This document shows positions 3,685-20,655 of a stretch of 64,000 nucleotides of DNA, one piece after another. The notes beneath the pieces were generated by a model. The model was not told where the DNA came from. It was given only the letters and a program-made list of their open reading frames with translations, and did not search any database. Source of the stretch: Acetohalobium arabaticum DSM 5501. Lineage in GTDB: Bacteria > Bacillota > Halanaerobiia > Halobacteroidales > Acetohalobiaceae. Within the stretch, counting starts at the first letter, position 1; each line of letters starts with the position of its first letter. A program made the position numbers and the translations under genes. The stretch is taken from NCBI RefSeq assembly GCF_000144695.1, contig NC_014378.1, positions 842,781 to 906,780 of the forward strand, written 5' to 3'.

Positions 3685-3715
3685 AGGCAAATGATGTTAT
3701 AAAACTTAATATTGC

Positions 3716-3893
3716 GCAGTAATTAGGTGCTTCTAGCTATTGGTTAGAAGATAATAGGGAATCAGGTGCAAATCCTGAACGGGTCCGCCACTGTAACTGG
3801 CAGATTAAGCTTGGTATACCACTTGGATACTTAAGTATCCAGGGAAGGTAAAGCTTGACGATAAGCCAGAAGTCAGGAGACCTACCTAATTGC
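3716..3893 (+). promoter_or_regulatory. Cobalamin riboswitch 1 (AdoCbl aptamer)
   Basis: The core blocks of the B12 aptamer are all present: GGGAATCAGGTGCAAATCC at 3757, the GGGTCCGCCACTGTAACTGG segment at 3781, and a B12 box (AGCCAGAAGTCAGGAGACC) at about 3864-3882. Outer helix P1 pairs the AATTAGGTG side near 3721 with CCTACCTAATTGC at 3881-3893. It controls the first cobalt ECF operon; B12 binding is expected to favour the terminator at 3953. Confidence 0.93.
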
Positions 3894-3952
3894 TTAGCCT
3901 ACTTTTATCTTCGATGACAAGAAGAGTAGGTAATTAGTGTAGGGCTAATTAT

Positions 3953-4082: not shown

Positions 4083-4865
4083 ATGAGACGAATTAGTTCA
4101 ATTTTATTATTAAGTTTAATTTTAGTATTAGGAGTTACAGTAGCTGCTTCAGCTCACTTTCAAATGATCTTACCTTCAGATGATGTAGTTATGCAGGGGG
4201 AGGAGCGAGAGATAGATTTAGACCTTGTCTTTACTCATCCAATGGCTGGACATACTATGGATATGGAGAAGCCAGCCAAGTTTGGTGTTTTACATAAAGG
4301 TACTAAGAAGAGTCTGGTAGATACTTTAGAACCGTCCAAGATTAAGGGGCGCGATGCCTTTGAAACTTCTTATCGGCTTAGAGGGTTTGGAGACTTTGTC
4401 TTCTATGTGGAACCAGAACCTTACTGGGAATCTGCGGATGGAGTTTATATTACTCAATGTACAAAAATGGTTGTTAACTCCATGGGAGTAGCCAGTGACT
4501 GGGGTAAAGAAGTTGGTATGAAAGCAGAAATTGTTCCGTTAACTCGTCCTTACGGTCTTTGGACGAACAATGTCTTTACAGGAGTTGTCAAAAAGAACGG
4601 CAAGCCGGTTCCTTATGCTGAGATAGAAGTAGAGTACTTTAATGAGGGTAAATTTTCTAAGTTAGCAGGAAATGAAGTAACTGAACTACCGAATGAAACT
4701 TTTACTACCCAAGTAATTAAGGCTGATAAAAATGGAGTCTTTACCTATGCTATGCCTAAATCAGGCTGGTGGGGCTTTGCGGCTTTAATGGAAGGTGAGC
4801 CAGTTAACGGTAAAAGCCATGAGATAGGAGCAGTTATGTGGGTTAAAACGCATGATATGAAGTAG
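4083..4865 (+). CDS. DUF4198 periplasmic component of Co2+/Ni2+ ECF transport (NikK/CbiK-type, COG5266), copy 1
   Basis: 260 residues with a Sec signal peptide (residues 1-25, cut near SASAHF), so the mature protein begins with the [10 protein letters not shown] motif typical of DUF4198. The mature N-terminal His may bind metal (inference from family). The domain is a beta-rich fold with a late [10 protein letters not shown] motif and [20 protein letters not shown] near the end. COG5266 proteins are encoded with CbiM/NikM importers; their biochemical role is not established. It is the first gene after riboswitch 1. It is close to the copy at 17080 throughout. Confidence 0.85.
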   Translation: MRRISSILLLSLILVLGVTVAASAHFQMILPSDDVVMQGEEREIDLDLVFTHPMAGHTMDMEKPAKFGVLHKGTKKSLVDTLEPSKIKGRDAFETSYRLRGFGDFVFYVEPEPYWESADGVYITQCTKMVVNSMGVASDWGKEVGMKAEIVPLTRPYGLWTNNVFTGVVKKNGKPVPYAEIEVEYFNEGKFSKLAGNEVTELPNETFTTQVIKADKNGVFTYAMPKSGWWGFAALMEGEPVNGKSHEIGAVMWVKTHDMK

Positions 4866-4882
4866 TTATCTGTTAAAGTAGA

Positions 4883-4918
4883 AGGCCTCCCTTGAAGTTA
4901 AGTAATCAAGGGAGCCTC
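4883..4918. terminator. Hairpin between DUF4198 gene 1 and cbiM1
   Basis: A 12-base stem (AGGCCTCCCTTGA with TCAAGGGAGCCT, one mismatch) without a U-run after it on either strand. It probably damps read-through or protects the upstream mRNA end rather than fully terminating. Confidence 0.5.
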
Positions 4919-4965
4919 CTATTAATTAATAGATTTAGAAGTTATCTTGAAAGGAAGGTGATAGG

Positions 4966-5604
4966 ATGCATATTTCTGAAGGTGTTCTTTCAGCGCCGGT
5001 ATTATTAACAGGAGCTGCTACAACGGTTGCTGGAGTTGCTGTTGGTTTAAAAACGATGGATAATGAAGATATTCCGAAAACAGCTATAGTTTCTTCGGCT
5101 TTATTTGTAGCTTCATTGATTCATATTCCTTTAGGACCGACCAGTGTTCATCTTATTCTTAACGGAGTTGCTGGTATATTATTAGGGTGGCAGGTTTTTC
5201 CTGCATTTCTTATAGCTTTATTTTTACAGGCAGTATTATTTCAATTTGGAGGGCTTACTTCTTTGGGCATGAATACAATTAATGTAGCACTTCCTGCTAT
5301 TGTCGGTTATTATTTATTTAAATCCTTGTTAAAGTTTAATCGTAATGATAAGCAGTTGTTTTTAGGTGTGATATCTTTTGTTTGTGGAATAGTTCCTGTC
5401 TTTTTGACTACCATTATGCTAGCTATTTCGCTTGTGTTTACGAATGAATCTTTTTTAGAAGTAGCCCAGCTTACTATAGTCAGTCATCTACCTGTAATGG
5501 CTATTGAAGGAATTATTAGTGCTTTTGCTATAATTTTTATTAAGAGAGTTAAACCAGAAATGTTAAAAGGAGTGATCGGTAAAAATGAAGAGTTTAAAAT
5601 TTAA
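4966..5604 (+). CDS. cbiM: CbiM, substrate-binding subunit of cobalt ECF transporter, copy 1
   Basis: Integral S-component that binds Co2+ (or Ni2+) through its extreme N-terminus. The protein begins MHISEGVLSAPV, keeping Met1-His2, the residues that co-ordinate metal in this family, so the start is certain. About seven membrane segments are seen in 212 residues, with the conserved SALFVASLIHIPLGPTSVHL block around residues 45-65. It overlaps the next gene by 20 bases. Cobalt rather than nickel is inferred from the cobalamin riboswitch. Confidence 0.94.
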   Translation: MHISEGVLSAPVLLTGAATTVAGVAVGLKTMDNEDIPKTAIVSSALFVASLIHIPLGPTSVHLILNGVAGILLGWQVFPAFLIALFLQAVLFQFGGLTSLGMNTINVALPAIVGYYLFKSLLKFNRNDKQLFLGVISFVCGIVPVFLTTIMLAISLVFTNESFLEVAQLTIVSHLPVMAIEGIISAFAIIFIKRVKPEMLKGVIGKNEEFKI

Positions 5605-6241
5605 GAAAAAATTATCTGCTTACATTCCATTTACTATCTGTATTGCTTTGGTAATAGCTTTAATATTAACTTTACCGGCCTATGCCCATAGAGTTATTTC
5701 TTATTCTTATGTTGAAGGAGATAGTGTTGTTGTTGAAGGAGCTTTTGATGATGGTAGTCCTACTAAAAAAGCCAAAGTAAAAGTTTATAATTCTTCTGGT
5801 AAGGTGATTAATAAAGGAAAAACTAATGCTCAGGGAATATATAAGTTTGAAGTATCAAAGAAGGATGATTTAAAGATTGTGCTAGAAGCAGGTATGGGTC
5901 ATAAAGCAGAATCTAATATTAAACAGGAGGATCTGCCTGAAGTAGCTAATTCAAGTACTCAACAACAGACTAAGGATAATTCTAAACAGAGTTCTATTCA
6001 AGAATCTACTACAACTACTGGAATTAGTGAAGATAAATTGCGTTCTCTTATCAGAGAAGAATTGTCAAAAGAGTTATCTGAGAAATTACCCCAGGAGATA
6101 GCACCGATAAAGAGAAGTTTAATTCAGCTTAAGAATAAAAAAGGACCTGGCGTTACTGAAATTTTAGGGGGGATAGGTTATATCTTTGGCTTAATGGGAA
6201 TTGCATTCTATTTTAAAGCCAAAAGGAGTGAAGTAGCTTGA
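5585..6241 (+). CDS. CbiL/NikL-like accessory membrane protein of the cobalt ECF transporter, copy 1
   Basis: 218 residues: an N-terminal signal or anchor (about 12-34, ending in LPAYAHR), a small beta-sandwich domain (about 35-110) that resembles carboxypeptidase-regulatory-like folds, a Gln/Ser/Thr linker, a short coiled region, and one C-terminal membrane helix (about 188-207). The mature end HRVISYSYVEG begins with His, like the CbiN/NikL group. It replaces CbiN in KMLQO-type operons. ATG 5585 has AAGGAG upstream and overlaps cbiM; its stop overlaps the TTG start of cbiQ. Confidence 0.8.
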   Translation: MKSLKFKKKLSAYIPFTICIALVIALILTLPAYAHRVISYSYVEGDSVVVEGAFDDGSPTKKAKVKVYNSSGKVINKGKTNAQGIYKFEVSKKDDLKIVLEAGMGHKAESNIKQEDLPEVANSSTQQQTKDNSKQSSIQESTTTTGISEDKLRSLIREELSKELSEKLPQEIAPIKRSLIQLKNKKGPGVTEILGGIGYIFGLMGIAFYFKAKRSEVA

Positions 6242-7002
6242 TTGATGAAAAATTTACTGAGGGATCTACCTGGGTTCACCAGTTAGATCCCCGAATAAAG
6301 ATTGTAATAACTATGATGTTGGCAGTAGTAACAGCAGTGGGAAAGAATGTAGATATGTTACTGGTAGCCTTTGGTTTTTCTGGTTTGCTGTTAATAACTG
6401 CTAGACTTGATATAAAAAAGGTAGGAAAACGGTTATTAATAGTTAATAGTTTTATTTTTTTAATGTGGTTGATTTTACCGTTTACGTATCCAGGAGAAGG
6501 TTTATTCCAAGTTGGACCTTTAATAGCTTCTCGTGAAGGTGTTATATATACAGCAAAGATTACTTTAAGATCTAATACCATTATGTTGATCATGATTTCT
6601 TTACTTTCTACTTCCGCTATGTCATCAATTATTCATGCTATGAAGTATCTATATATACCAGAAAAGCTTATCTATTTATTGTTCTTTATTTATCGATATA
6701 TACATGTGATTAAAACTGAATTTGGTAATCTTTATAGTGCTATGTTATTGAGAGGTTTTAAACCAAATACAACTATTCATTGTTATAAATCTTATGCTTA
6801 TTTAGTAGGTAGGTTGCTTATAAAAAGCTATGAACGTTCTCAAAGAGTTTATGAAGCAATGACGTGTCGTGGTTTTAAGGGTAAATTTTATATACTGGAT
6901 AATTTCAATCTTTCTTCACTTGATTATTTAGTTTTTGTTGGTTCTTTATTTTTGGTTAGTTGTTTAGTTATGTTAGAGTCTGGATATTTGATGTTGAAAT
7001 AA
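6238..7002 (+). CDS. cbiQ: CbiQ, T-component of cobalt ECF transporter, copy 1
   Basis: 254-residue membrane protein that couples the ATPase to CbiM. It begins with TTG at 6238, overlapping the previous stop codon (TTGA), with AAGGAGTGA just upstream. Several hydrophobic helices fill residues 20-150. Two coupling motifs of the X-R-G type are visible: MLLRGFKPN near 160 and AMTCRGFKGK near 200. Confidence 0.92.
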   Translation: MIDEKFTEGSTWVHQLDPRIKIVITMMLAVVTAVGKNVDMLLVAFGFSGLLLITARLDIKKVGKRLLIVNSFIFLMWLILPFTYPGEGLFQVGPLIASREGVIYTAKITLRSNTIMLIMISLLSTSAMSSIIHAMKYLYIPEKLIYLLFFIYRYIHVIKTEFGNLYSAMLLRGFKPNTTIHCYKSYAYLVGRLLIKSYERSQRVYEAMTCRGFKGKFYILDNFNLSSLDYLVFVGSLFLVSCLVMLESGYLMLK

Positions 7003-7189
7003 TGATCTGTAGTTGTTTTAAATCTAAAACTTCCGCCTTCACTGAGTACATATCCAGTATTTTTTAGTTCGGGATATCTTGACAGAAGCTATAGAACCGT
7101 CTTCTTTTTCAGTGATTTTAGCTGATGAAGCAGGAAATTCATTAGCTTTAACAGAAGACTTTACTATGGAGGAAGGAGTTTATAATTTT
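7003..7189. other. Non-coding or vestigial stretch between cbiQ1 and cbiO1
   Basis: No intact gene. The plus frame is open back to about 7040 and joins cbiO, but its amino acids match nothing I know. On the minus strand two neighbouring frames read as plausible protein (about 7190-7070 and then 7072-7000, the second containing YVLSEGGSFRFKT), which suggests a frameshifted gene fragment. Both readings are weak. Confidence 0.3.
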
Positions 7190-7816
7190 ATGATTAAAAT
7201 CAGGAATCTTTCATTTCAATATCCAGATGGCACACAAATTTTAGATAACTTTAATCTTACTGTCCAAGAAAATGATAGGATAGCTTTAATTGGTCCTAAT
7301 GGTACTGGAAAGACGACTCTTTTTAAAATTATAATGGGACTATTAATTCCTCAGGAAGGCGAGGTTATTATTTTTGGCAAACAACGTAAAGAAGAAGAAG
7401 ATTTTGTTGAAGTGAGAGAAAAGATAGGATTTTTATTCCAGGACTCTGATGATCAATTATTCTGTTCTACTGTAGAAGAAGATATTGCTTTTGGACCTTT
7501 GAATTTAGGAAAGAGTAAAGAGAAAGCAATGGAGATTGTTAGTGAGACCTTGGAACTAGTGGATATGCAGGGATTTGAAAAGAAAACACCTTATTCTCTA
7601 TCAGGGGGCGAAAAGAGAATGATTGCTTTTGCTACTATACTGGCCATGAAACCAAAGTTATTACTGCTTGATGAGCCCTTTGCTGGTTTAGATAAAGATG
7701 CAACTGAGAAGATGCTTTCCATTTTAACTGAGATTGACTTACCTTATGTAATTATTTCTCATCGAAATTCTTTAGTAAAAGAAGTTACAGATGATTCTTA
7801 TTATCTAAATCGATAA
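7190..7816 (+). CDS. cbiO: CbiO, ATP-binding subunit of cobalt ECF transporter, copy 1
   Basis: ABC ATPase of the importer. Walker A is GPNGTGKTT, the signature is LSGGEKR, Walker B is LLLLDEP and the switch His is in ISHR. ATG 7190 is preferred over the upstream TTG at 7079 because the sequence MIKIRNLSFQYPDGT is where CbiO proteins normally begin and GGAAGGAG lies 11 bases ahead. The resulting 208 residues are shorter than the usual 250-280; the C-terminal region after the switch His is reduced. It is separated from cbiQ1 by about 190 bases of apparently vestigial sequence. Confidence 0.88.
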   Translation: MIKIRNLSFQYPDGTQILDNFNLTVQENDRIALIGPNGTGKTTLFKIIMGLLIPQEGEVIIFGKQRKEEEDFVEVREKIGFLFQDSDDQLFCSTVEEDIAFGPLNLGKSKEKAMEIVSETLELVDMQGFEKKTPYSLSGGEKRMIAFATILAMKPKLLLLDEPFAGLDKDATEKMLSILTEIDLPYVIISHRNSLVKEVTDDSYYLNR

Positions 7817-7878: not shown

Positions 7879-7902
7879 TGTATACAAGATAATTTAATAT
7901 AA

Positions 7903-8082
7903 TCAGCGTTATAGGTTCGGTAGTTAGACTGCCGATTAAAAGGGAAGTGCGGTGTGACTCCGCCACGGTCCCGCCACTGTAACTAGCTAGTTAGGCTTGT
8001 GTTGCCACTTGAATATGACTGATATTCAGGGAAGGTAGAGTCTAACAGTAAGCTAGAAGTCAGGAGACCTGCCTGGAATGGA
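7903..8082 (+). promoter_or_regulatory. Cobalamin riboswitch 2 (orphan)
   Basis: Classic core: TAGGTTCGGT at 7912, TTAAAAGGGAAG at 7936, CACGGTCCCGCCACTGTAAC at 7964 and a B12 box (AGCTAGAAGTCAGGAGACC) near 8050. Its GTGCGGTGTGACTCCGCC arm is closer to the textbook form than the other three. It is followed by terminators and no gene until 8658, which has its own promoter region. Confidence 0.92.
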
Positions 8083-8129
8083 ATTAATATTACTCACGAG
8101 GATGGGTGTATTGGCTAGTTAGCTAATCC

Positions 8130-8160
8130 AACCTTTCTCTATTGTGAGAAAGGTTTTTTG
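8130..8160 (+). terminator. Riboswitch 2 terminator
   Basis: AACCTTTCTC / GAGAAAGGTT hairpin followed by TTTTTTG, 50 bases beyond the B12 box. Confidence 0.85.
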
Positions 8161-8172
8161 ATTTTGGTATCC

Positions 8173-8206
8173 CGCCTTCTCCATTCTGTGAGAAGGTTTT
8201 TATTTT
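8173..8206 (+). terminator. Second terminator in the orphan riboswitch leader
   Basis: CCTTCTC / GAGAAGG stem followed by TTTTTATTTTT, only 13 bases after the first terminator. The stem sequence echoes the first. Confidence 0.7.
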
Positions 8207-8248
8207 TAATAAACCTCCTTAGTGGTTTGGATTAACCTACATATTGAT

Positions 8249-8299
8249 AGCCTCAGAAAATAGATGTTTAGTTGGTTTCTGAGGCTGTTCCCCCTTTTT
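8249..8299 (+). terminator. Third terminator-like hairpin
   Basis: AGCCTCAGAAA / TTTCTGAGGCT, perfect 11-base stem, followed by GTTCCCCCTTTTTT. Confidence 0.65.
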
Positions 8300-8393
8300 T
8301 ATTTTAATGATTGTACTTTATAGGAAGATATTTTTGATTAATTTATAGATTTTTACTTCTGTTAATCCCATAATTTAATCCCTATTTAGTAAG

Positions 8394-8428
8394 CCTTAGT
8401 TCTGATCAGAACTAAGGTCTTTTTTTTA
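8394..8428 (+). terminator. Fourth terminator hairpin
   Basis: CCTTAGTTCTG / CAGAACTAAGG palindrome followed by TCTTTTTTTT. An A-rich block (AAAAAAATAGAAAAAAT) begins just after it. Confidence 0.75.
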
Positions 8429-8559
8429 CAGGGGGATAAAAAAATAGAAAAAATCTAAAAATAAGCAGGAATTTAGTTATAGATAGTGAATTAATTATAT
8501 ACCAGATGTTATTAAAAAGAAATTAATGATATTAACATTTTAATAGATTTAAGCATATT

Positions 8560-8635
8560 ATATATTACTATTATGAAAAACGTGTTATTTTTTTACTAAT
8601 GTAGTGTTACTTTTTTATTAAAAATATCATAATCT
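8560..8635 (+). promoter_or_regulatory. Direct-repeat promoter element, copy 1
   Basis: GTGTTA at 8582 and again at 8604 (22 bases apart), each followed by a T-run, then ATTAAAAATATCAT. A weaker TATTAC-like unit lies about 20 bases further upstream. It sits 25-75 bases before the RBS of the first lipoprotein gene and recurs near 13330, 15753 and 18376. Confidence 0.6.
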
Positions 8636-8657: not shown

Positions 8658-9758
8658 ATGAAGAATAAGAAATGGAGCATACTATTATTAATTTTTATTT
8701 TTTTAGTATTTAGTGTGATTACTGGTTGTACTAAACAAACAGCTAATGAAACAAAAGAAGCAACAGAAGTTGTTACTGACTTAAATGATAGAAAAGTAGA
8801 AGTGCCGCAGAATGTAGAAAGAATTGTATGTATTGGACCGGGAGCTCTTCGGTTAATAACTTATATGAATAGTACAGATCTTGTGGTTGGAGTTGAAGAG
8901 GGAGAACATAAAGATGATTGGGGAGGTGCCTATAATCTGGCTCACCCGGAATTCAAAGATTTACCGATCATTGGTCCTAATCACGGGGGGGATGCTGAAT
9001 TAATTGCTGCCCAAAATCCAGATGTTATCTTCTTGTACGGTGATTCTAATAAAGCTAAAAACCTGCAACAGAAAACAGGAGTTCCAGTGGTTATGCTGGA
9101 TTATACAGATTTGGGACCTAATCGTAACCAGGGACTTTATAAATCCTGGAGATTAATCGGAAAGGTTTTGGATAAAGAAGCAAAAGCAGAAGAGTTAATT
9201 GCTTATACTGAAGAACTAATTGCTGATCTTAAAAAGAGGACTGAGGATATTCCTAAGAAAGAAAAACCAAAGGTTTATGCTGGGGCTATATCCTATCACG
9301 GCGGTCACGGTATCATATCGACTAAAGTTCCTTTTCCTCCATTTACTTTTCTTAATGCTAGCTATGTAGCTGATGAATTAGGGTATGAAGAGGTACAGTC
9401 TTTAATGATTAATCAGGAAAAAATCTTAGACTGGGATCCGGAAATTATTTTTATTGATGAAAGTAATTTGAATTTAGTTAAACAAGATTTACGCAAGAAT
9501 CAAGAATATAAATCAATAACGGCAATAGAAAAAGGAAATATATATGGCTTTTTGCCTTATGCATCCTACCATCGCAATCCAGCAACAATACTGGCTAATA
9601 CATATTATATGGGAAAAGTACTTTATCCTGAAGAGTTCAGTGATATTGAGCCGGATAAGAAAGCAAATACTATCTTTAAGAAGTTTGTAGGAAAAGCTGT
9701 TTATGAAGAATTGGCCCAAACTTATGGTGGATTTAAACCAATAAAATTAAAGAATTAA
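8658..9758 (+). CDS. FepB/BtuF-type substrate-binding lipoprotein 1 (metal-chelate or corrinoid)
   Basis: Lipoprotein with lipobox Cys24 (VITGC). A Peripla_BP_2 (COG0614) fold follows, with the start DLNDRKVEVPQNVERIV, the motif GPNHGGDAELIAAQNPDVIF near 110-130, and KILDWDPEIIFID near 250. A histidine-rich block HGGHGII near residue 213, followed by PFPPFTF, is a candidate ligand-contact site (inference). It is first in an operon with the permease and ATPase that follow. The substrate is unknown; cobalt chelate or corrinoid is suggested by the neighbourhood only. Two paralogues follow at 13393 and 14537. Confidence 0.83.
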   Translation: MKNKKWSILLLIFIFLVFSVITGCTKQTANETKEATEVVTDLNDRKVEVPQNVERIVCIGPGALRLITYMNSTDLVVGVEEGEHKDDWGGAYNLAHPEFKDLPIIGPNHGGDAELIAAQNPDVIFLYGDSNKAKNLQQKTGVPVVMLDYTDLGPNRNQGLYKSWRLIGKVLDKEAKAEELIAYTEELIADLKKRTEDIPKKEKPKVYAGAISYHGGHGIISTKVPFPPFTFLNASYVADELGYEEVQSLMINQEKILDWDPEIIFIDESNLNLVKQDLRKNQEYKSITAIEKGNIYGFLPYASYHRNPATILANTYYMGKVLYPEEFSDIEPDKKANTIFKKFVGKAVYEELAQTYGGFKPIKLKN

Positions 9759-9793
9759 GTATTAGTGCTTATTAATTAGTGAGGTGAAATTGA

Positions 9794-10861
9794 GTGGCTA
9801 AGAAAGAAGGAATTCTAGCAGAATACCAAAAATATACAGGCAAGAAAGTATTATTTGGAGCAGTTTTAATATTGCTACTTATTCTTCTTACTATGTATTC
9901 AATTGCAGTTGGAGCAGTAAAGATCCCGATTGCTGAAGTAGTAACTACATTATTAGGTAGTAATACAGGTAATGCTTATACAATTATCTGGAATATCAGG
10001 CTGCCGAGGGTATTAGCGGCTATAGCAGCCGGCATGGGACTATCAGTATCTGGAGCGGCTATGCAGAGTATCTTAAAGAATCCCTTAGGCTCACCGTATA
10101 CGCTAGGGATTTCTCATGCGGCAGCCTTTGGAGCAGCCTTTTCAATAGTAGTGTTGGGAGCGGGGTCATTACAGAGTAGCAGTGCTGATGCTGTTATATT
10201 GAATAATCCGTATATAACTACTATTTCGGCTTTTGTCTGGGCGCTGATTTCTACAGGAGTTATACTTATCTTAACTAAATACAAAAATGCAACGCCGGAG
10301 ACGATGATTCTTACAGGAGTAGCCCTAAGCTCTCTTTTTACTGCCGGAACGACGGCTCTACAGTACTTTGCCAGCGATGTAGAGATTGCATCTATTGTCT
10401 TCTGGACCTTCGGTGATGTCGGGCGGGTTACCTGGAATAATTTATTAATTATAAGCTTAGCAGTGATTCCGTCCTCAGTCTACTTTATGTACAATAGCTG
10501 GAATTATAGTGCTTTAGCTTCAGGAAAAGAGACGGCTAAAAGCCTAGGAGTTAATGTTGAAAAGATAAGATTACATGGGATGCTAATATCATCTTTTGTT
10601 ACTGCTTTAATTGTTTCCTTTGTTGGAATTATAGGCTTTGTTGGTTTAGTAGCACCACACATTGTAAGAAAGATAATCGGTGGAGATGAGAAATATTTGA
10701 TACCGGTTTCCTGTTTAGTAGGCGGTTTATTACTGCTGGCTTCTGATACAGCAGCCAGAACTGTGATTGCTCCGATTGTTCTGCCGGTTGGGATTTTGAC
10801 CTCATTTTTAGGTGCGCCGTTATTTATTTATTTAGTCTTAAAGGGGAGGAGATACTGGTGA
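9794..10861 (+). CDS. FecCD/BtuC-family ABC permease
   Basis: 355 residues with about ten membrane segments. Family motifs include NIRLPRVLAAIAAGMGLSVSG near residue 70, the NPLGSPYTLGISHAA segment near 95, and GFVGLVAPHIVRKI near 280 (the ATPase coupling region). GTG start at 9794 with GAGGTGA upstream. The stop overlaps the start of the ATPase gene by 4 bases. Confidence 0.92.
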   Translation: MAKKEGILAEYQKYTGKKVLFGAVLILLLILLTMYSIAVGAVKIPIAEVVTTLLGSNTGNAYTIIWNIRLPRVLAAIAAGMGLSVSGAAMQSILKNPLGSPYTLGISHAAAFGAAFSIVVLGAGSLQSSSADAVILNNPYITTISAFVWALISTGVILILTKYKNATPETMILTGVALSSLFTAGTTALQYFASDVEIASIVFWTFGDVGRVTWNNLLIISLAVIPSSVYFMYNSWNYSALASGKETAKSLGVNVEKIRLHGMLISSFVTALIVSFVGIIGFVGLVAPHIVRKIIGGDEKYLIPVSCLVGGLLLLASDTAARTVIAPIVLPVGILTSFLGAPLFIYLVLKGRRYW

Positions 10862-11622
10862 GGTTAGAAATTGAAGGGTTGGAATTCAGTTATCAACAGG
10901 AAGATATTTTAAAGAATATAGAATTGGAGTTAGATGAAGGTGAAATTCTGGGAATTATCGGTCCTAATGGTTCTGGTAAAAGTACTCTGTTAAAGTGTAT
11001 TAATGGTATTCTAAAGCCTGATAGAGGTGATATCTGGCTAAATGGTAAGGATTTAGCTAAATTTAGCAGTAATGAAATGGCGCAGAATATTGGCTATGTA
11101 CCTCAAAAGGAGAATCGTAAATTTCCAGCTACTGTCTTTGATACAATTTTGATGGGCCGTAAGCCGTATATCAGCTGGAAACCAACAGAAAAGGACTTAA
11201 CAATTGTGTCAGAAATTATCGATATGCTTTATTTAGATAGTATTTCTATGCGTGATGTGAACCGCTTAAGCGGCGGACAGCGCCAGAAGGTAATTATGGG
11301 GCGGGCCTTAGCCCAGCAGCCGGAGGTTATGTTATTGGATGAACCGACAAGTGATCTGGATTTAAAGCATCAACTGGAGGTTTTGAATGTAGTTAAGGAT
11401 CAGGTAGCCCAGGGGATTTCGGCCATAATTGCTATCCATGATCTCAGTTTAGCCGGTAGATACTGTGATAAAATAGTAATGCTTGATCAAGGACGTATCT
11501 TTGATGCCGGTGGTTTAGAGATTCTAACGCCGAAGAATATTGAGTCTGTCTATGATGTAAAGGTAAGTGTTAAAGAACATTACGGAAGAAGATTAGTAGT
11601 GCCTGAAGAGCCGATAGCATAA
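10858..11622 (+). CDS. FepC/BtuD-family ABC ATPase
   Basis: 254 residues with Walker A GPNGSGKST, signature LSGGQRQK, Walker B VMLLDEPTSDLD and switch His in AIHDLSLA. GTG start overlaps the permease stop. With lipoprotein 1 and the permease it forms a complete class-II importer of the siderophore/B12/heme group. Confidence 0.93.
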   Translation: MRLEIEGLEFSYQQEDILKNIELELDEGEILGIIGPNGSGKSTLLKCINGILKPDRGDIWLNGKDLAKFSSNEMAQNIGYVPQKENRKFPATVFDTILMGRKPYISWKPTEKDLTIVSEIIDMLYLDSISMRDVNRLSGGQRQKVIMGRALAQQPEVMLLDEPTSDLDLKHQLEVLNVVKDQVAQGISAIIAIHDLSLAGRYCDKIVMLDQGRIFDAGGLEILTPKNIESVYDVKVSVKEHYGRRLVVPEEPIA

Positions 11623-11645
11623 TATTAATCAAGGAGTGTTATAAA

Positions 11646-12728
11646 ATGGAAATAGAATCTATTGGTACTGTCAAGAGCAAATTTGATGAACCGGCTGATC
11701 CGGAGGAGATGCAAAAAGAGGAAAGTACTATTATAATTAAGCCGGAGTATGAAGAAGGTCTCTATCGAATTGAGGATAATGATTATCTGCAGGTAGCATT
11801 CCAGTTCCATCTTTCAGATAGTTATGAGCTTAAGGCTCCCCGGCGGCATGGAAGAGTAAGAGGCGTTTTTGCTTCTCGCAGTCCTAACCGTCCCAGTTCT
11901 ATCGGGACTACCTGTGTAGAGCTACTTGAGCGGCAGGGAAGAAGGCTTAAGATAAAGGGGCTAGATGCTGTAGATGGAACTCCAATACTTGATCTTAAGC
12001 CTTATGCAGCAATTATGGATAAACCAGATGATGACTTTGCTGATAAAAAAGAAGATCCTCGGGCAGAGATTAACCATTTGATCAGAAGCCATGATTTAGA
12101 GTCTCTTTTAATTAAGGCTGGTGAATTGCACGGCCATTTCTGTCCTTACGTTAGTCTAGGAGTTATAGCTGGGGCTTATGCTCTGGATGAATTAGGTTTA
12201 AAGTCAGCCGGTATGGAGGATGTAGTGGCTATTGTAGAGACCAATAGCTGCTTTAGCGATGGAGTTCAGTATGCTACCGGCTGCAGCTTTGGTAATAATG
12301 CCTTAATCTACCGCGACTATGGCAAAACGGCTGTTACAGTAGCAAAACGGGATGGAACAGGAATTCGACTCTATGTTAAGGATAATGATGAGCTTCTAAG
12401 TGAGTATCCTGAAGCAGAAGAGCTTTTTGATAAAGTTATTGTGAATCGTGCTGGAACTAAAGAGGATAAGAAACGTATTAATCAATTATGGAATGAGATA
12501 GCCTTTGAGTTAATAAGAAAGCCAGTCGACGAGTTATTTAATATCGAAGAAGTGAATGCTGAGCTGTCGGAATATGCTCCAATCTTTGAAGATGCTTTCT
12601 GTAATGACTGCGGCGAGAAGATTATGGGGCCTAAGGCTGTTTCAAAAGAGGATAAAGACTTATGTATTTCCTGTGCCGATGCTGATTATCTACAGCTTGA
12701 TGGTCGTGGATTAGTAGAGGTTGAATAA
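11646..12728 (+). CDS. TrmO-like (TsaA) and FmdE fusion protein with zinc ribbon
   Basis: Three parts are visible in 360 residues. Residues about 1-125 are a TsaA/TrmO-type SAM-binding beta barrel (IGTVKSKF, RRHGRVRGVFASRSPNRPSS). Residues about 140-300 match FmdE (PF02663): AGELHGHFCPYVSLGVIAG and a Cys-containing TNSCFSDGVQYATGCSFGN. The last 50 residues hold a zinc ribbon, CNDCGEK ... CISCADAD. FmdE-like proteins bind metal, but their role outside methanogens is unknown. Translation follows the ATPase gene by 23 bases with AAGGAG upstream, so it belongs to the import operon. It may process an imported metal complex (inference). Confidence 0.8.
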   Translation: MEIESIGTVKSKFDEPADPEEMQKEESTIIIKPEYEEGLYRIEDNDYLQVAFQFHLSDSYELKAPRRHGRVRGVFASRSPNRPSSIGTTCVELLERQGRRLKIKGLDAVDGTPILDLKPYAAIMDKPDDDFADKKEDPRAEINHLIRSHDLESLLIKAGELHGHFCPYVSLGVIAGAYALDELGLKSAGMEDVVAIVETNSCFSDGVQYATGCSFGNNALIYRDYGKTAVTVAKRDGTGIRLYVKDNDELLSEYPEAEELFDKVIVNRAGTKEDKKRINQLWNEIAFELIRKPVDELFNIEEVNAELSEYAPIFEDAFCNDCGEKIMGPKAVSKEDKDLCISCADADYLQLDGRGLVEVE

Positions 12729-12756
12729 TTACAAGAATTAAAGGAGGAGAGTAGCT

Positions 12757-13275
12757 ATGGAATTAGAGCCAGATGAGCTTCAAGAAGTACTGCCGCTGCC
12801 GATGACAGTGATTACTACTACTAATAGTGAGGGGATTGACAATGCTGCACCCTACGGCTGCGTGATGCCGATACTTAGGCCGTTGAATTTGGTTGCTCTT
12901 GCTTCGGCGCTGCCCCGCGATACTTTAGCAAATATTCGTGAGACAGAGGAGTTTGTGATTAATGTAATGGGCAAGCCTGGTTATCAGGAGAGTATGAAGT
13001 GCAGCAAAGATTTTCCTAAAGAGGTTAATGAGTTGACAGAAGTTGGGCTTGAGACTACTTCTAGTTTGGAGGTTACTCCGCCTCGGATAAAGAAGGCTAT
13101 CGGCTGGATTGAGGCTAGATTAGAGCGGGAAGTTGAAGGCGATGATTATGTAATTGTCTTAGGAGAAGCAGTCTCTGTGGAAGTCAATGATGAATATCTA
13201 GAGGAAGATGAGATAACAGAAGATCCTTTGGTAATGTTTTCTTCCAACTTTAAACAGCTTGGAGATAGTATTTAA
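12757..13275 (+). CDS. Flavin reductase-like FMN-binding protein
   Basis: 172 residues of the flavin reductase-like split-barrel family: LPLPMTVITTTNSEG at the start, APYGCVMPI, and the region ALPRDTLANIRETEEFVIN. It sits 28 bases after the TrmO-FmdE gene with AAAGGAGGAG upstream. A reductive step on an imported metal complex is one idea (inference only). Confidence 0.83.
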   Translation: MELEPDELQEVLPLPMTVITTTNSEGIDNAAPYGCVMPILRPLNLVALASALPRDTLANIRETEEFVINVMGKPGYQESMKCSKDFPKEVNELTEVGLETTSSLEVTPPRIKKAIGWIEARLEREVEGDDYVIVLGEAVSVEVNDEYLEEDEITEDPLVMFSSNFKQLGDSI

Positions 13276-13325
13276 ATCTTAGAGAAGTTTATAGCTTTGA
13301 TTACAATAGAATATTTTTTTAAGTT

Positions 13326-13360
13326 TGTAATGTTACTTTTTATATAAATGTGTTATCTGT
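13326..13360 (+). promoter_or_regulatory. Direct-repeat promoter element, copy 2 (diverged)
   Basis: ATGTTAC at 13330 and GTGTTAT at 13350, 20 bases apart, with a TTTTTATATAAA stretch between. It lies shortly before the RBS GGAGGGAGG of lipoprotein 2. Confidence 0.45.
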
Positions 13361-13392
13361 AATGGTTATTCTATCAGGAGGGAGGATAGAAA

Positions 13393-14499
13393 ATGAATAA
13401 AATAAAGCAATATGGAATAGTAGTAATGATGTTAGCTTTATTATTAGTTGTTGGTGGATGTGCCGGTCAGCAGGCAGAGGAAAAGATAGAGACAGTTAAG
13501 ATTGAAGATATGGTAGGTCGAGAGGTTGAAGTGCCGAAAGAAGTAGATAAAACTATTGGAGTCGGCGCTGGAGCATTAAGATTAATTACCTATCTTGAGG
13601 CTACTGATAAAGTAGTGGGAGTTGAGCAATTCGAGAAGCGGGATCAGAATCGGCCTTATATCATGGGGCATCCTGAATTGACTGAACTGCCGTCGATTGG
13701 TCCGATTCACGGCGGTGATGCCGAGTTAATAGCAGCTCAGAGTCCGGATGTGATCTTTGCTACCTACACTGATGGCAGTACAGCAGATAGTCTGCAGGAA
13801 AAGACAGGAATTCCAGTAGTTGTTTTAAGCTATGGTGGACCTTCAACTATGGAGCGGGATACATATTATAAAGGTTTGAAATTAATGGCTGAGGTACTGA
13901 ATAAGGAGGATAGAGCTGAAGAATTAATCCAATATACCGAAGATGTGATTGATGATCTACAGCAGAGAACAGAAGATATTGCTAAAGCAGATAAACCAAA
14001 AGTCTATGCTGGTGGAATAGGCCAGCGCGGTTCCCATGGAATTGTTTCTACTGAACCTGCTTATCCATCCTTTGAATTCATAAATGCAAATAATGTTGCT
14101 AGTCCACTAGGGATGGAGCATGCAATGGTCAGCAAAGAGAAGCTTCTAGAGTGGGATCCAGAGATTATATTTGTGGATGAAGGCGGTTATTCTTTAGTGG
14201 TAGAGGATCTAAAGAGTCCTGAATATGAATCTATCTCTGCTGTTGAGAATGGCGAACTTTATGGTGTGCTGCCTTATAATTATTATACTACCAACTTTGA
14301 AACAGTCTTAATTAATTCCTATTATATGGGTAAAATAATCTATCCTGAGCAGTTTAGTGATATCGCCTCGGAAAAGAAGGCAGATAAGATTTATGAGAAG
14401 TTTGTAGGAGCACCGGTATATGATCAGATGCAAGAAGCCTTTGGCGGATATAAGAGGATTGATTTACAGCAGGCTATTAAAGAGGTAGAGAATAAATAG
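13393..14499 (+). CDS. FepB/BtuF-type substrate-binding lipoprotein 2
   Basis: 368 residues, lipobox Cys23 (VVGGC). Clearly paralogous to lipoprotein 1, with GPIHGGDAELIAAQSPDVIF and KLLEWDPEIIFVDEG. The His-rich block differs: QRGSHGIVST replaces HGGHGI, so ligand preference may differ. It has no permease or ATPase of its own and would need to share those at 9794 and 10858. Confidence 0.82.
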   Translation: MNKIKQYGIVVMMLALLLVVGGCAGQQAEEKIETVKIEDMVGREVEVPKEVDKTIGVGAGALRLITYLEATDKVVGVEQFEKRDQNRPYIMGHPELTELPSIGPIHGGDAELIAAQSPDVIFATYTDGSTADSLQEKTGIPVVVLSYGGPSTMERDTYYKGLKLMAEVLNKEDRAEELIQYTEDVIDDLQQRTEDIAKADKPKVYAGGIGQRGSHGIVSTEPAYPSFEFINANNVASPLGMEHAMVSKEKLLEWDPEIIFVDEGGYSLVVEDLKSPEYESISAVENGELYGVLPYNYYTTNFETVLINSYYMGKIIYPEQFSDIASEKKADKIYEKFVGAPVYDQMQEAFGGYKRIDLQQAIKEVENK

Positions 14500-14536
14500 T
14501 CAATATTAATAATATATTTACAAGGGGGAAAAGATT

Positions 14537-15628
14537 TTGCAGAAAAAGAAGTGGTTCAGCTTATTAGTAGTAACTGTAGTTTCTATGTCAGTTTTGATTG
14601 GAGGGTGTGCTGATAATCAGGCCCAGCAGACAGTTGAGAAGACCGAAATAACTGATTTATCCGATAGAAAGGTTGAGATTCCCCGGCAAGTAGATAGAAT
14701 TGTGGCTTTAGGTTCAGGAGCACTGCGGCAGATAGTATATCTGGGTGCTGCGGATAAGGTTGTTGGTGTGGAAGAGATTGAACATCGTAAAGATAATTAT
14801 GCTCCTTATAATCTAGCTCATCAAGAATTTAGGGATCTGCCGACAGTAGGGCCTAATCATGGAGGAGATGCAGAGTTAATAGCGGCTCAAGCGCCAGATG
14901 TAATCTTCTTTAAAGGTGATCCTGGTGAAGCCAAGGATTTACAGCAGAAGACAGGAATACCGGTAATTAATTTGGCAGTTGGTGATTTTCCGCGGCGGGA
15001 TGAGGTTCTTTATCAGTCCTGGCGTTTGATTGGCAAGATACTGGATAGAGAAGAGAGAGTAGAAGAATTAATTCAATATATGGAAGATTCAATTGCAGAT
15101 CTTAAAGAGAGGACAGTTGGAATTTCTGATCAACAGAAACCAGAGGTTTATGCCGGCGGTATAACTCACCGCGGAGGACACGGTATTGCTGGTGCCAAGG
15201 AGCCTTTTCCTCCATTCCAATTTGTTCAGGCTAAAAATGTTGCTGGTGAGTTGGGACATAAAGAAGTTACGTCTGTGATGGTTAGTCGGGAGAAAATATT
15301 AGACTGGAATCCAGAGATTATCTTTATTAATAGTGCTAATGAGAAGTTAGTTAAAGGAGATCTACAGAAGCATTCTGAATATAAATCCTTGACTGCTATT
15401 GAAGAGGATAAAGTTTATGGAGTGCTGCCCTATTCTTATTACCACCGTAATTTTGGTTCGATATTGGCTAACTCATATTATATAGGTAAGATTCTTTATC
15501 CTGACAGGTTTAGTGATATTGATCCAGCAGCAAAGGCTGATGAAATTTATAAAGAATTTATAGGAAAAGCAGTTTATGATCAAATGGAAGAGAAAGTTGG
15601 TGGATTTAAAAGAGTTAAGCTAGATTAA
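14537..15628 (+). CDS. FepB/BtuF-type substrate-binding lipoprotein 3
   Basis: 363 residues, lipobox Cys24 (LIGGC), TTG start at 14537 with AAGGGGG upstream. Nearer to lipoprotein 1 than to 2: it shares GPNHGGDAELIAAQAPDVIF, a RGGHGI block near residue 215 and PFPPFQF. It follows lipoprotein 2 by 37 bases and is probably co-transcribed with it. Confidence 0.82.
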   Translation: MQKKKWFSLLVVTVVSMSVLIGGCADNQAQQTVEKTEITDLSDRKVEIPRQVDRIVALGSGALRQIVYLGAADKVVGVEEIEHRKDNYAPYNLAHQEFRDLPTVGPNHGGDAELIAAQAPDVIFFKGDPGEAKDLQQKTGIPVINLAVGDFPRRDEVLYQSWRLIGKILDREERVEELIQYMEDSIADLKERTVGISDQQKPEVYAGGITHRGGHGIAGAKEPFPPFQFVQAKNVAGELGHKEVTSVMVSREKILDWNPEIIFINSANEKLVKGDLQKHSEYKSLTAIEEDKVYGVLPYSYYHRNFGSILANSYYIGKILYPDRFSDIDPAAKADEIYKEFIGKAVYDQMEEKVGGFKRVKLD

Positions 15629-15744: not shown

Positions 15745-15826
15745 TACATAGAGTGTTATGAAATAATTATTTGTGTTATTTTTTTAAGATTTTAGTGTTA
15801 CTTTTTTTATAAAAATAATATTAGAT
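15745..15826 (+). promoter_or_regulatory. Direct-repeat promoter element, copy 3 (three units)
   Basis: GTGTTA occurs at 15753, 15773 and 15795, spaced 20 and 22 bases, about two helical turns. The last unit is followed by a T-run and TATAAAAATAATATT. It is the fullest copy, yet only an 18-codon reading frame follows. Confidence 0.6.
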
Positions 15827-15835
15827 AAGGTGGTG

Positions 15836-15892
15836 ATGATAAAAAAGAATGTTGAGGATTATGATATGGACTATCTGAGTAAAGTAACCTAA
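15836..15892 (+). CDS. 18-codon reading frame behind promoter element 3
   Basis: ATG 15836 has AAGGTGG a few bases upstream and the frame ends with TAA at 15890. The peptide is too short to assign. It may be a micropeptide or, more likely, the surviving start of a deleted gene: the promoter region resembles that of lipoprotein 1, and a hairpin follows at 15894-15927. Confidence 0.35.
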   Translation: MIKKNVEDYDMDYLSKVT

Positions 15893-16162
15893 TACTCTCC
15901 CCATCTCTGGTCAAGATGGGGAGAGTAAAAAAGTAGAAAAAATTAAAAGTTATAAGAAGTTAACAAGACCAAAATTGATAATATGAGCATGATATATAAA
16001 ATTATTAGGCTCTTCCACGAATTTTGTGATAAATGATTCAGTTGTCTAAATGATGCTTAAATAACTGGAAATTAGTTAATTTAATTCCAAATTTTAAATA
16101 GTTCAAAATTTGCGGCAACTAATTATTATAAGTTGAAAGAAAAAGGACAATAGATCTAAGAG
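15893..16162. other. Intergenic stretch with hairpins before the porin pseudogene
   Basis: Holds a 15-base hairpin at 15894-15927 followed by AAAAAAG on the plus strand, another A-rich AAAAAAGTAGAAAAAAT block, and a nested inverted repeat at 16070-16124 (AATTAGTT...AACTAATT enclosing CAAATTTT...AAAATTTG). No gene is seen. Confidence 0.5.
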
Positions 16163-17079: not shown

Positions 17080-17871
17080 ATGAAACGAACTAGTTCTATC
17101 TTATTGTTGAGTTTAGTCTTGGTATTAGGAGTTACATTAACTGCTTCGGCACATTTTCAAATGATTCTGCCTTCAGATGATGTAGTTATGAAGGGAGAAG
17201 AGCAAACAATAGATTTAAATTTATTATTTACTCATCCAATGTCTGCTGCTGAAGTAATGGATATGGAACAGCCAAATAAATTTGGGGTTATACATAAGGG
17301 GAATAGGACTAGCTTATTAGACAGTTTACAGTCTAAAGAATTTATGGGCGGTAAGGGCTATACAACTTCTTATCAGCTTGAAAGATTCGGTGATTATACT
17401 TTTTATTTACAGCCAGGTCCTTACTGGGAACCAGCGGAAAGTAAGTATATTACCCACTGTACTAAAGTAGTAGTCAATTCTATGGGAGTTTCACAGAATT
17501 GGGACCAAGAAATTGGTATGAAAGCTGAAATAGTTCCACTTACTAGACCTTATGGTTTGTGGACAAATAACACTTTTAGAGGCGTTGTAATGAAGAATGG
17601 TAAGCCGGTGCCTAATGCTGAAGTTGAAGTTGAATATTTCAATCAAGCCAAGTTTGATTCATTGAAGCAGGATACTTATGAAAGTGTAGAACTCCCAGCA
17701 GATGTATTTACTACTCAGGTAATTAAAGCTGATAAGAATGGTGTCTTCTCCTATTCTATGCCTAAAGCCGGTTGGTGGGGCTTTGCGGCATTGATGGAAG
17801 GTGAACCAATCAATGGTAAGAGCCATGAATTAGGTGCTCTTATGTGGGTTAAAACTTATGATATGAAGTAA
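17080..17871 (+). CDS. DUF4198 periplasmic component of Co2+/Ni2+ ECF transport, copy 2
   Basis: 263 residues, clearly homologous to the copy at 4083 throughout: signal peptide ending [16 protein letters not shown] at the mature start, [10 protein letters not shown] in the middle and [13 protein letters not shown] at the end. The RBS AGGGAGGA lies upstream. Unlike copy 1, it follows only the remnant of a riboswitch, so it is probably not B12-repressed (inference). Confidence 0.84.
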
Positions 17872-17881
17872 CTTATAAAAT

Positions 17882-17914
17882 GCCTCACCCTAATTATGGG
17901 GTGAGGCAAAAAAA
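17882..17914. terminator. Hairpin between convergent genes
   Basis: GCCTCACCC / GGGTGAGGC stem. On the plus strand it is followed by A's; on the minus strand by ATTTTAT. It can serve the end of both the DUF4198 gene and the small minus-strand gene. Confidence 0.6.
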
Positions 17915-17936
17915 TGATTATTATTCTAATTGTTGC

Positions 17937-18167
17937 TTAGTGTAACTGCATAGAATTGATTTCTTGTAATAATTTTTCACCTTCGTTGATATGCTTTTTG
18001 AGGTGGTTTATTTCTTCTTGTTCTGCATTGGATTCTTTTAATTCTTCTAATTCTGTTTTGTGGGTTGCAATGGATCCTTTTACATCTTGATAAATTTCCA
18101 TAGCTTGAGCAAAATTTAAGTTATCTTTTTCTTGTTGGAACTTATGGCGCATGCTGTTACAGCTCAA
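17937..18167 (-). CDS. Small hypothetical coiled-coil protein
   Basis: 76 residues, charged, helical throughout (KTELEELKESNAEQEEINH), with two Cys-free halves and no known family recognised. TTG start at 18167 is supported by GGGAGG eight bases upstream on the minus strand. It lies antisense between the DUF4198 gene and cbiM2, splitting what is one operon in copy 1. Confidence 0.65.
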   Translation of the reverse strand: MSCNSMRHKFQQEKDNLNFAQAMEIYQDVKGSIATHKTELEELKESNAEQEEINHLKKHINEGEKLLQEINSMQLH

Positions 18168-18349
18168 TTATGATACCTCCCTATTAGTAGATTATAGTCT
18201 GTTTATTATTATTTTCTTAAAAAGAGCCAAAATTATAAATAAAATAGGGATTTGGAGTAATATTTTGAAATAGAAAACTTGAATTTTTGCAGGAGTTTGT
18301 TTACATTTGAAGAATAAATAAATATGAAATATTATTAATCTTGATAAGC

Positions 18350-18406
18350 TTGTTTGCAATTTTTTTGACCAAGTAGTGTTATTTTTTAAGTAAAAATATT
18401 ATTCAA
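18350..18406 (+). promoter_or_regulatory. Direct-repeat promoter element, copy 4
   Basis: TGTTTGCAATTTTTTTGAC at about 18352 and GTAGTGTTATTTTTTAAG at 18373, followed by TAAAAATATTATT. The unit and spacing (about 22) match copy 1. It lies 60 bases ahead of cbiM2 and suggests separate transcription of the second importer. Confidence 0.55.
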
Positions 18407-18466
18407 TATACATAATGAAAGTAGAACTAGCTTGGTATATTGGCTATGAAAAGGAAGGTGAATAAT

Positions 18467-19075
18467 ATGCATATTTCTGAAGGTGTACTTTCTGCGCCGG
18501 TATTAGTGGCTGGTGCTGCAGCAACGGCGGCAGGAGTTGGTGTAGGTCTAACAGGGATGAGTGATGAAGATATTCCTAAAACTGCTATTGTATCTTCGGC
18601 TTTATTTGTAGCTTCATTAATTCATATTCCCCTAGGTCCTACTAATCTACATCTTGTTCTTAATGGAATCGGCGGTATCTTATTGGGGTGGCAGATATTT
18701 CCTGCGTTTTTAGTCGCTTTATCCTTACAAGCAATTCTGTTTCAATTTGGAGGAATTACTGTATTAGGGATTAATACTTTTAATCTGGCTTTACCTGCTG
18801 TAGCTAGTTATTATTTATTTAAATTGTTACTGAACTTTAATCGAAGCGATAAAGAATTAGTGTTAGGTGGTATAGCTTTAATCTGTGGAATAGTAGCTGT
18901 GTTTTTGAGTACTATTATGTTAGCTATTTCGCTGGTATTTACTAATGAGTCTTTTCTTGAAATAGCTAAACTTACTGTAGTCAGTCAACTACCATTAATG
19001 TTAGTTGAAGGGATTAGTAGTGCTTTTATTATAACATTTATCAACAAGGCTAAGCCCGAAATTCTGGAGGGATAA
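18467..19075 (+). CDS. cbiM: CbiM, copy 2
   Basis: 202 residues starting MHISEGVLSAPVL, so ATG 18467 (RBS AAGGAAGGTG) is chosen over the upstream ATG at 18440: the family needs Met1-His2 at the free N-terminus. It is very similar to copy 1, with SALFVASLIHIPLGPT conserved. It lacks about 10 C-terminal residues relative to copy 1. Confidence 0.93.
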   Translation: MHISEGVLSAPVLVAGAAATAAGVGVGLTGMSDEDIPKTAIVSSALFVASLIHIPLGPTNLHLVLNGIGGILLGWQIFPAFLVALSLQAILFQFGGITVLGINTFNLALPAVASYYLFKLLLNFNRSDKELVLGGIALICGIVAVFLSTIMLAISLVFTNESFLEIAKLTVVSQLPLMLVEGISSAFIITFINKAKPEILEG

Positions 19076-19081
19076 GAGAAA

Positions 19082-19762
19082 ATGTTTAAAGTAGAATCTA
19101 ATAAAAGATCTTTATTATCCATATTCTTTTCTGTTGTTGTGATTCTGTTATTGACTTTAGTACTGACTCTTCCGGCCTATGCCCATAGAATTGTTTCTTA
19201 TGCTTATACAGAAGGAGATGAAGTTGTAGTTGAAGGAGCTTATGGTAATGGTAGTCCGGTTAAGGATTGTAAGGTGGTAGTTTATGATTCGCAAGAGAAT
19301 GTTGTTTATGAGGGCAGAACCGACTCCCAGGGTATCGCTAAATTTAAAGTACCAAAAAAATCAGATTTAAAGATAATAATGGATTCAGGAACAGGTCATA
19401 AATCAGAATCTATCATTGAAAAAGAAGAGCTGTCGGAAATAAAACCGGAGAATAAATTTCACAGTAATAAAGAGAATTCTAGTACTCAAAAGGTGACTCA
19501 AGATAATAATTCTGCTAAAGAGTCTGGAGTGGAGACTACTGGAATCAGTGAAGATAAGCTGCGTAAGATTATTCAGGAGGAAGTCTCCGAGGAGTTATCT
19601 GGGCAATTATCTAATGATATAGCTTCTATCAAGCGGGATTTAGTTCGCCTTAAAAAGAAAAAAGGTCCGGGAGTGGTTGAAATATTAGGTGGTTTAGGTT
19701 ACATTATGGGCTTGATGGGGATTGGTCTTTACTTTAAGACTAAAGGAGATGAGCAAGCTTGA
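19082..19762 (+). CDS. CbiL/NikL-like accessory protein, copy 2
   Basis: 226 residues with the same layout as copy 1: N-terminal hydrophobic segment ending LPAYAHR, beta domain to about residue 110, polar linker, and a C-terminal membrane helix (GYIMGLMGIGLYF). The mature N-terminus HRIVSYAYTEGDEVV keeps the His start. Its stop overlaps the TTG start of cbiQ2. Confidence 0.8.
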   Translation: MFKVESNKRSLLSIFFSVVVILLLTLVLTLPAYAHRIVSYAYTEGDEVVVEGAYGNGSPVKDCKVVVYDSQENVVYEGRTDSQGIAKFKVPKKSDLKIIMDSGTGHKSESIIEKEELSEIKPENKFHSNKENSSTQKVTQDNNSAKESGVETTGISEDKLRKIIQEEVSEELSGQLSNDIASIKRDLVRLKKKKGPGVVEILGGLGYIMGLMGIGLYFKTKGDEQA

Positions 19763-20643: not shown

Positions 20644-20655
20644 AAAAAATTAAAT

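Follow-up and report, generated by a model that had tools for sequence, protein, structure and literature searches.

What would be imported by a binding-protein-dependent system whose operon also encodes a fusion of TrmO and FmdE domains, and what part would such a fusion take in the import, are the questions raised by a locus of Acetohalobium arabaticum DSM 5501. This locus lies in a 64-kb stretch of DNA (positions 842781-906780 of the 2,469,596-base, single-contig genome), hereafter the window, in whose numbering coordinates are given. An open reading frame (ORF) check of the window recovered, at the coordinates given by an initial annotation, seven genes on the forward strand, namely (i) the substrate-binding protein SBP1, a Peripla_BP_2 lipoprotein (8658-9758; lipobox ITGC), (ii) an FecCD-type permease (9794-10861; Pfam FecCD, E 5e-93), (iii) an ABC ATPase of the FecE/BtuD type (10858-11622; Pfam ABC_tran), (iv) the TrmO-FmdE-zinc-finger fusion of 360 aa (11646-12728), (v) a flavin reductase-like protein (12757-13275; Pfam Flavin_Reduct, 1e-24), and (vi, vii) two further Peripla_BP_2 lipoproteins, SBP2 (13393-14499; lipobox VGGC) and SBP3 (14537-15628; lipobox IGGC). 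From SBP1 to SBP3, the intergenic gaps are 35, -4, 23, 28, 117, and 37 bases, the permease and ATPase ORFs overlapping by 4 bases and the fusion gene being bounded by 23 bases on the ATPase side and 28 on the flavin reductase side. The order and spacing described in the initial annotation were thus confirmed by ORFs, Pfam domains and gaps alike. With a Peripla_BP_2 lipoprotein, an FecCD permease and an ABC ATPase in one operon, the importer belongs to the FecCD class (type II).

On balance, the operon is viewed here as serving the high-affinity uptake of a nickel chelate, and possibly of a cobalt chelate too, combined with a cytoplasmic release module.

Recurrent linkage of the fusion with importers

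The linkage of fusion and importer is real, and the broad reading of the operon as an import system holds. The initial annotation had suggested looking in other genomes for such fusions beside importer genes of COG0614/COG0609/COG1120. The relatives retrieved by name were members of the Halanaerobiales, among them Natroniella, Fuchsiella, Halanaerobacter, and Halanaerobium. An importer permease or SBP was found within 7 kb at 29 of 65 fusion or FmdE-finger loci (12 of the FecCD type, 17 of the Nik/Dpp type) and at 0 of 13 ordinary TrmO loci (222 kb; Fisher p 0.0014), in counts whose rows are not phylogenetically independent and where many contigs are short. As such, the pairing is beyond chance. 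All lineages taken together, 12 of the 65 loci have nikR or lar genes no more than 7 kb away.

The closest counterparts are found in Halanaerobacter and Halanaerobium, where the SBP-permease-ATPase-fusion operon is near or continuous with nikR, larC, larB, and larE (L053, L063, L065), and related operons with nikR occur in a Clostridia metagenome-assembled genome (MAG), Bipolaricaulota and Marinilabilia (L055, L056, L071). Natroniella and Fuchsiella instead have this fusion next to an importer of the Nik/Dpp type. More widely, fusion relatives stand beside FecCD- or Nik/Dpp-type importers in several phyla of bacteria and archaea, a fusion or FmdE protein being linked to a Nik/Dpp importer also in ANME-2 archaea and Chloroflexota, and TrmO and FmdE can be separate neighbours within one importer operon (L082, L084, L089, L138). 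A flavin reductase adjoins TrmO or FmdE in genome G003 and in ANME-2 archaea, where the fusion or FmdE is followed by a flavin reductase, then by a large protein and finally by the Nik/Dpp importer; the flavin reductase pairing thus recurs across domains of life. The large protein comprises two (L072) or three (L073) FmdE domains and, at L072:1913-4027 and L073:2793-5936, exhibits by eye a signal-like start and a dockerin-like tail beside the Nik/Dpp importer; these multi-FmdE proteins may be extracellular metal-chelate binders. At L140:9091-10116 and L141:9268-10243, FmdE-finger genes directly adjoin nikR, and no FecCD or Nik/Dpp importer was recognised nearby.

As an internal control, TrmO genes from the same bacterial class were split into those closest to the fusion (48-82% identity) and canonical ones (29-38%). 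Genes for Nik/Dpp, Cbi, Lar, cobO, or flavin reductase neighbour 9 of the 16 stand-alone TrmO of the fusion's clade and 0 of the 13 canonical ones (p 0.0012), after three manual edits to the automatic count, i.e., removal of L151 (larE 1.7 kb off and on the other strand) and of L130 (weak match 2.9 kb off), and addition of L043, which has a riboswitch and adjoins cobO and cbiO; unedited, the count is 9/16 versus 1/13. Some of these stand-alone domains occur at loci with B12 riboswitches or with Cbi or Lar genes. Taken by itself, the difference in riboswitches between the close TrmO loci and the canonical ones is not significant (5/16 versus 0/8, p 0.13). In the sister genome G001, a riboswitch, CobO, stand-alone TrmO, and CbiO follow one another (L043:8252-10841), and the FmdE half has no match in that genome.

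Control elements and nature of the cargo

Regarding the cargo, the initial annotation had proposed a cobalt or nickel chelate, or else a corrinoid. The former part is favoured, indirectly, by the nikR, lar, and cbi neighbours, by the association with two kinds of nickel importers and by putative operators at the operon itself. A direct repeat, GTGTTAT-N15-GTGTTAC, was located before SBP1 by a whole-genome pattern search (8582-8610, forward strand); the sequence at 8582, GTGTTATTTTTTTACTAATGTAGTGTTAC, lies downstream of a weak promoter-like site, TTAACA-18-TATTAT (8532-8561, forward strand), which was retrieved by a consensus scan showing no excess over shuffles. A weaker direct repeat, ATGTTAC-N13-GTGTTAT, was seen before SBP2 (13330-13356, forward strand), and the pattern search revealed a triple half-site after SBP3 (15753-15801, forward strand). 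Genome-wide, GTGTTAY-N13..15-GTGTTAY has 3 matches, all adjoining the operon, and a control search with the pattern reversed gave none; similarly, no such direct-repeat operator arose in 400 simulated 7.5-kb sequences from an order-2 Markov model of the region. Beyond the last operator, the stretch 15800-15930 holds a ribosome-site-like sequence, a very short ORF and a hairpin, and is possibly a decayed gene or a leader peptide.

The delta-proteobacterial NikR signal has GTGTTAC as its half-site and was published in the form of an inverted repeat whose spacer measures 13 or 14 bases (PMC545781). At the window operon, the half-sites are present as direct repeats and the inverted arrangement is absent, whereas the boxes preceding nikR in two nickel-linked relatives, GTAACAC-N13-GTGTTAC (L065) and GTGTTAC-N13-GTAACAC (L055), match the published signal with no mismatch. 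In Fuchsiella, an exact direct repeat lies immediately 5' of the fusion gene. Since the repeats carry the NikR half-site, nickel-linked relatives carry inverted boxes before nikR and the window genome encodes one nikR, 13 kb outside the window, it is reasonable to infer that NikR would be the regulator.

The three lipoproteins share 50-57% identity pairwise (SBP3 versus SBP1, 57%); SBP1 shares 55% identity with the SBP encoded in the nikR-larE operon of Halanaerobacter jeridensis and SBP2 56% with that in the nikR operon of L055. The permease has counterparts of 65% identity in H. jeridensis and 82% in genome G009, where permease and ATPase of L142 are together 82-84% identical to the window pair. 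The best solved-structure match of SBP1 is 2etv (E 7e-90), a Thermotoga maritima protein annotated as iron-binding; the window SBPs are 48-52% identical to it (SBP2, 52%), and a literature search on its ligand gave no paper and no ligand evidence.

The corrinoid part of the proposal fared less well. A corrinoid or cobinamide importer, whose fusion and flavin reductase would reduce, remodel or demetallate corrinoids under control of the riboswitch at 7896, is quite unlikely, even though a cobalamin riboswitch (7896-8090, forward strand; Rfam RF00174, 107.5 bits) lies just upstream, cbi operons surround the locus and TrmO of the same clade occur under B12 riboswitches, namely after CobO in G001 (L043), after a flavin reductase in G003 (L047) and within the riboswitch operons of L044, L048, and L135. 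The window importer shares superfamily with BtuFCD, and BtuC is the top curated model of the permease, yet the score falls short of the cut-off (207.2 versus 334 bits), as does that of the ATPase for the corrinoid-ATPase model (229.5 versus 537 bits). Moreover, a separate BtuFCD-TonB operon, complete with SBP, FecCD permease, ATPase and TonB receptor and under a B12 riboswitch of its own, stands just upstream (L127), which makes a corrinoid the less likely cargo here; orthologous operons are located in nickel rather than B12 neighbourhoods, with nikR and lar genes, and these two observations together led to a corrinoid being demoted from first choice. The 3' end of the 7896 riboswitch is also 567 bases away from SBP1, with three terminator-like hairpins in between (8130, 8174, 8393; shuffles give 0.3), and the operon owns its operator. 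From 7896 to 8420, the riboswitch and hairpins precede SBP1 with no ORF of at least 80 aa; the riboswitch may be orphaned or steer a small RNA.

Cobalt rather than nickel could be the chelated metal, imported by the same mechanism and feeding the neighbouring cobalamin pathway. Operons of the Cbi/NikKMLQO type and riboswitches flank the operon, cbiC and cbiD follow from 57573, and in L044, L048, and L135 the operons that combine TrmO with a Nik/Dpp importer are headed by B12 riboswitches; against this stand the NikR-type half-sites and the location of the nearest operon relatives in nickel loci, so that cobalt instead of nickel is considered unlikely. The division may itself be artificial since a single importer, NiuBDE of Helicobacter pylori, takes both metals, in addition to bismuth, with tandem binding proteins NiuB1 and NiuB2 (PMC5140060). 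Like the window system, NiuBDE combines an FecCD-class permease, an ATPase, and duplicated binding proteins; unlike in the window, TrmO, FmdE, and flavin reductase are not described with it in the text consulted (PMC5140060). NiuBDE is the nearest working precedent, to which the window importer would be related in kind. A NiuB structure is present in the PDB; H. pylori NiuB was absent among the solved-structure matches of SBP1 and SBP2 at E 0.001, SBP2 retrieving only distant enterochelin-type binders. As for the NikABCDE (Nik/Dpp) importers with NikR, they resemble the window system by their linkage to the same fusion or FmdE and by the NikR half-site, and differ from it in that the window importer is of the FecCD class and its operator a direct repeat.

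Several observations weigh against a nickel-chelate importer. No recognised importer lies within 7 kb of 36 of the 65 loci, for which short contigs are partly responsible, and several Halanaerobium genomes have the fusion without a linked importer (L058, L061, L062, L110). Chelator biosynthesis genes were not seen at the loci. The nearest named control element is a cobalamin riboswitch and not nikR, Cbi operons lie on both sides of the operon, and the orientation of the repeats departs from the published NikR operator.

Domains of the fusion and a putative release step

In the fusion, Pfam recognises TrmO_N (2e-29; 11691-12020), FmdE (1.5e-38; core at 12126-12542, with the HGHxC site) and a C-terminal CxxC...CxxC zinc finger of the C4 type (12585-12683), all on the forward strand. 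By sequence, it matches the structures 2nv4, 2gvi, 3d00, and 2glz, and the same four are matched by the predicted fold. An AlphaFold model of the fusion has a mean predicted local distance difference test (pLDDT) of 76.6 and a predicted template modelling score (pTM) of 0.55, residues 56-83 being unreliable. The initial annotation deemed the pairing of domains unusual; the architecture itself has been on record since 2010 (PMC2954224), without the importer context. Literature searches for FmdE together with TrmO gave no papers, and those for COG1720, YaeB or COG2191 together with nickel nothing relevant.

Belonging to the FmdE family (PF02663) is attested by the FmdE fold, the HGHxC motif and the distal Cys of the metal site. 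In an alignment of 31 rows, His162, His164, Cys166, and Cys202 are invariant, as are Cys319, Cys322, Cys340, and Cys343 of the zinc finger. The HGHxC-plus-Cys site of 2glz binds zinc and nickel (PMC2954224), and His162, His164, and Cys166 appear to match it by motif and Cys202 by position as read. The structures 2glz, 2gvi, and 3d00 share with the fusion this site and the treble-clef finger (PMC2954224) but are not joined to TrmO.

As to the TrmO half, AF0241 (2nv4) contacts S-adenosylmethionine (AdoMet) through Gln22, Arg82, Asp111, and Lys122 (PMC4132733). The fusion retains Arg78, Asp107, and Lys118 while the equivalent of Gln22 is gone. The C-terminal DPRxxY domain of TrmO is absent and FmdE stands in its place; the linker DPRAEI lacks the Tyr, and counterparts of it occur in FmdE-only proteins. 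In a maximum-likelihood tree, the TrmO domain of the fusion falls in a clade apart from canonical TrmO (41 rows, stem 1.23, support 97/99), here called the Ni/Co TrmO clade, in which Arg, Asp, and Lys are kept in 41/41 and Gln in 0/41, whereas canonical TrmO has all four in 13/13. The clade is also devoid of the bacterial C-terminal domain. Bacterial TrmO requires this domain for tRNA methylation. Since Arg, Asp and Lys are kept and both Gln and the C-terminal domain lost, the use of AdoMet is likely retained and the substrate probably differs from that of canonical TrmO. The archaeal-type YaeB/TrmO, with AF0241, resembles the fusion by a beta-barrel AdoMet domain lacking the bacterial C-terminal domain (PMC4132733), from which the fusion differs by the loss of the Gln contacting the AdoMet amino group, by the fused FmdE and by the tie to metal import. 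In the same tree, where long branches are present, ANME-type fusions fall outside the bacterial fusion clade, so that fusions to FmdE occur in two separate TrmO lineages; the fusion thus probably arose twice. Elsewhere, TrmO_N is fused to RNase H (L144:9931-10797, Pfam), and ORFs of about 290 aa in L143, L146, L154, L155, and L156 suggest by their like lengths the same fusion.

That the TrmO half would be an ordinary tRNA m6t6A methyltransferase here by chance, next to an importer for a ferric siderophore or for molybdate/tungstate, is highly unlikely. TrmO_N does pass the TIGR00104 cut-off (101.1 versus 93.25 bits), no further TrmO was matched in the window genome, FmdE is named after a molybdenum enzyme operon, and SBP1 also matches HI_1472 (3psa) in the structure search; yet the separate clade and its lost Gln argue otherwise, several relatives possess a canonical TrmO as well, and the neighbours are Ni/Co genes. 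Molybdate or tungstate was rejected as no molybdenum genes were recognised beside linked importers, though L066 and L140 do have molybdenum cofactor (Moco) riboswitches.

At some loci, a class I AdoMet-dependent methyltransferase is found instead of TrmO beside FmdE and an importer, namely in a Caldilineae MAG (L075), in rumen Oscillospiraceae/Ruminococcaceae (L124-L126) and in G009 (L142), two of these enzymes being assigned by Pfam or by likeness to such a match. From this replacement, methylation, whatever the enzyme fold, could be the needed step, with the caveat that class I methyltransferases are common neighbours. Staphylopine-type biosynthesis was considered for L142 and rejected, as the 292-aa protein next to the importer is a class I methyltransferase and gave no match to nicotianamine synthase.

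Within the nickel-chelate uptake proposed here, one of the three lipoproteins, paralogues for different or competing chelates, would capture the metal complex, and the FecCD permease and ATPase, judging from their family, would carry it into the cell. There, the fusion may strip the metal from its carrier: the FmdE core would accept the metal on its His-x-His-x-Cys/Cys site, a site shown in homologues, and the TrmO domain would methylate the carrier with AdoMet, whereby the metal would be let go and rebinding blocked. The flavin reductase, whose nearest solved structure is the FMN-binding protein 1eje, would give electrons where the metal enters oxidised, e.g., as Co(III) chelates. A metal-responsive repressor, probably NikR given the half-site, would act at the GTGTTAC repeats. 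The putative AdoMet- or flavin-linked metal release advanced by the initial annotation fits the anatomy of the operon and draws some support from the class I methyltransferase found elsewhere in place of TrmO. In its general form, i.e., FmdE with an interchangeable AdoMet methyltransferase (TrmO barrel or class I) as a conserved module releasing Ni/Co from chelates by methylating the carrier, the idea is a doubtful one.

Genomic surroundings and significance

Upstream of the operon, a B12 riboswitch and genes for CbiM-like and small membrane proteins, an SBP, an FecCD permease, an ATPase, a TonB-dependent receptor, and TonB are arranged in one direction (L127 and window 11-2180), followed at 2194-3202 by genes labelled ExbB and ExbD from position only. 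Genes for a DUF4198 protein, CbiM, an L-like protein, CbiQ, and CbiO come next behind a riboswitch (4083-7816), and a second set of the DUF4198-CbiM type follows the operon (17080-22584). Both DUF4198-CbiM-L-like-CbiQ sets are of the NikKMLQO type and adjoin B12 riboswitches, so that cobalt may be what this "nickel" variant supplies here. The cobalamin synthesis genes from 57573 on stand behind a fourth riboswitch. Given this gene content, the region is a supply island for cobalt and B12, and probably for nickel. A tRNA-Asn called by ARAGORN at 3704-3786 is false, lying almost wholly within a strong cobalamin riboswitch (3708-3903), and an OrfB/IS605-type, TnpB-like transposase is encoded at 31558-32859.

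The substrates of archaeal-type YaeB/TrmO (PMC4132733) and the role of FmdE outside methanogenesis (PMC2954224) are open questions, and the link to nickel/cobalt import gives both kinds of proteins a testable role in trace-metal supply. Among the anaerobes concerned would be acetogens and methane oxidisers, and the link also suggests that there are Ni/Co carriers yet to be described. If true, methylation-based release would add a new principle to those of siderophore reduction and hydrolysis, and a large TrmO clade would have a function other than on tRNA.

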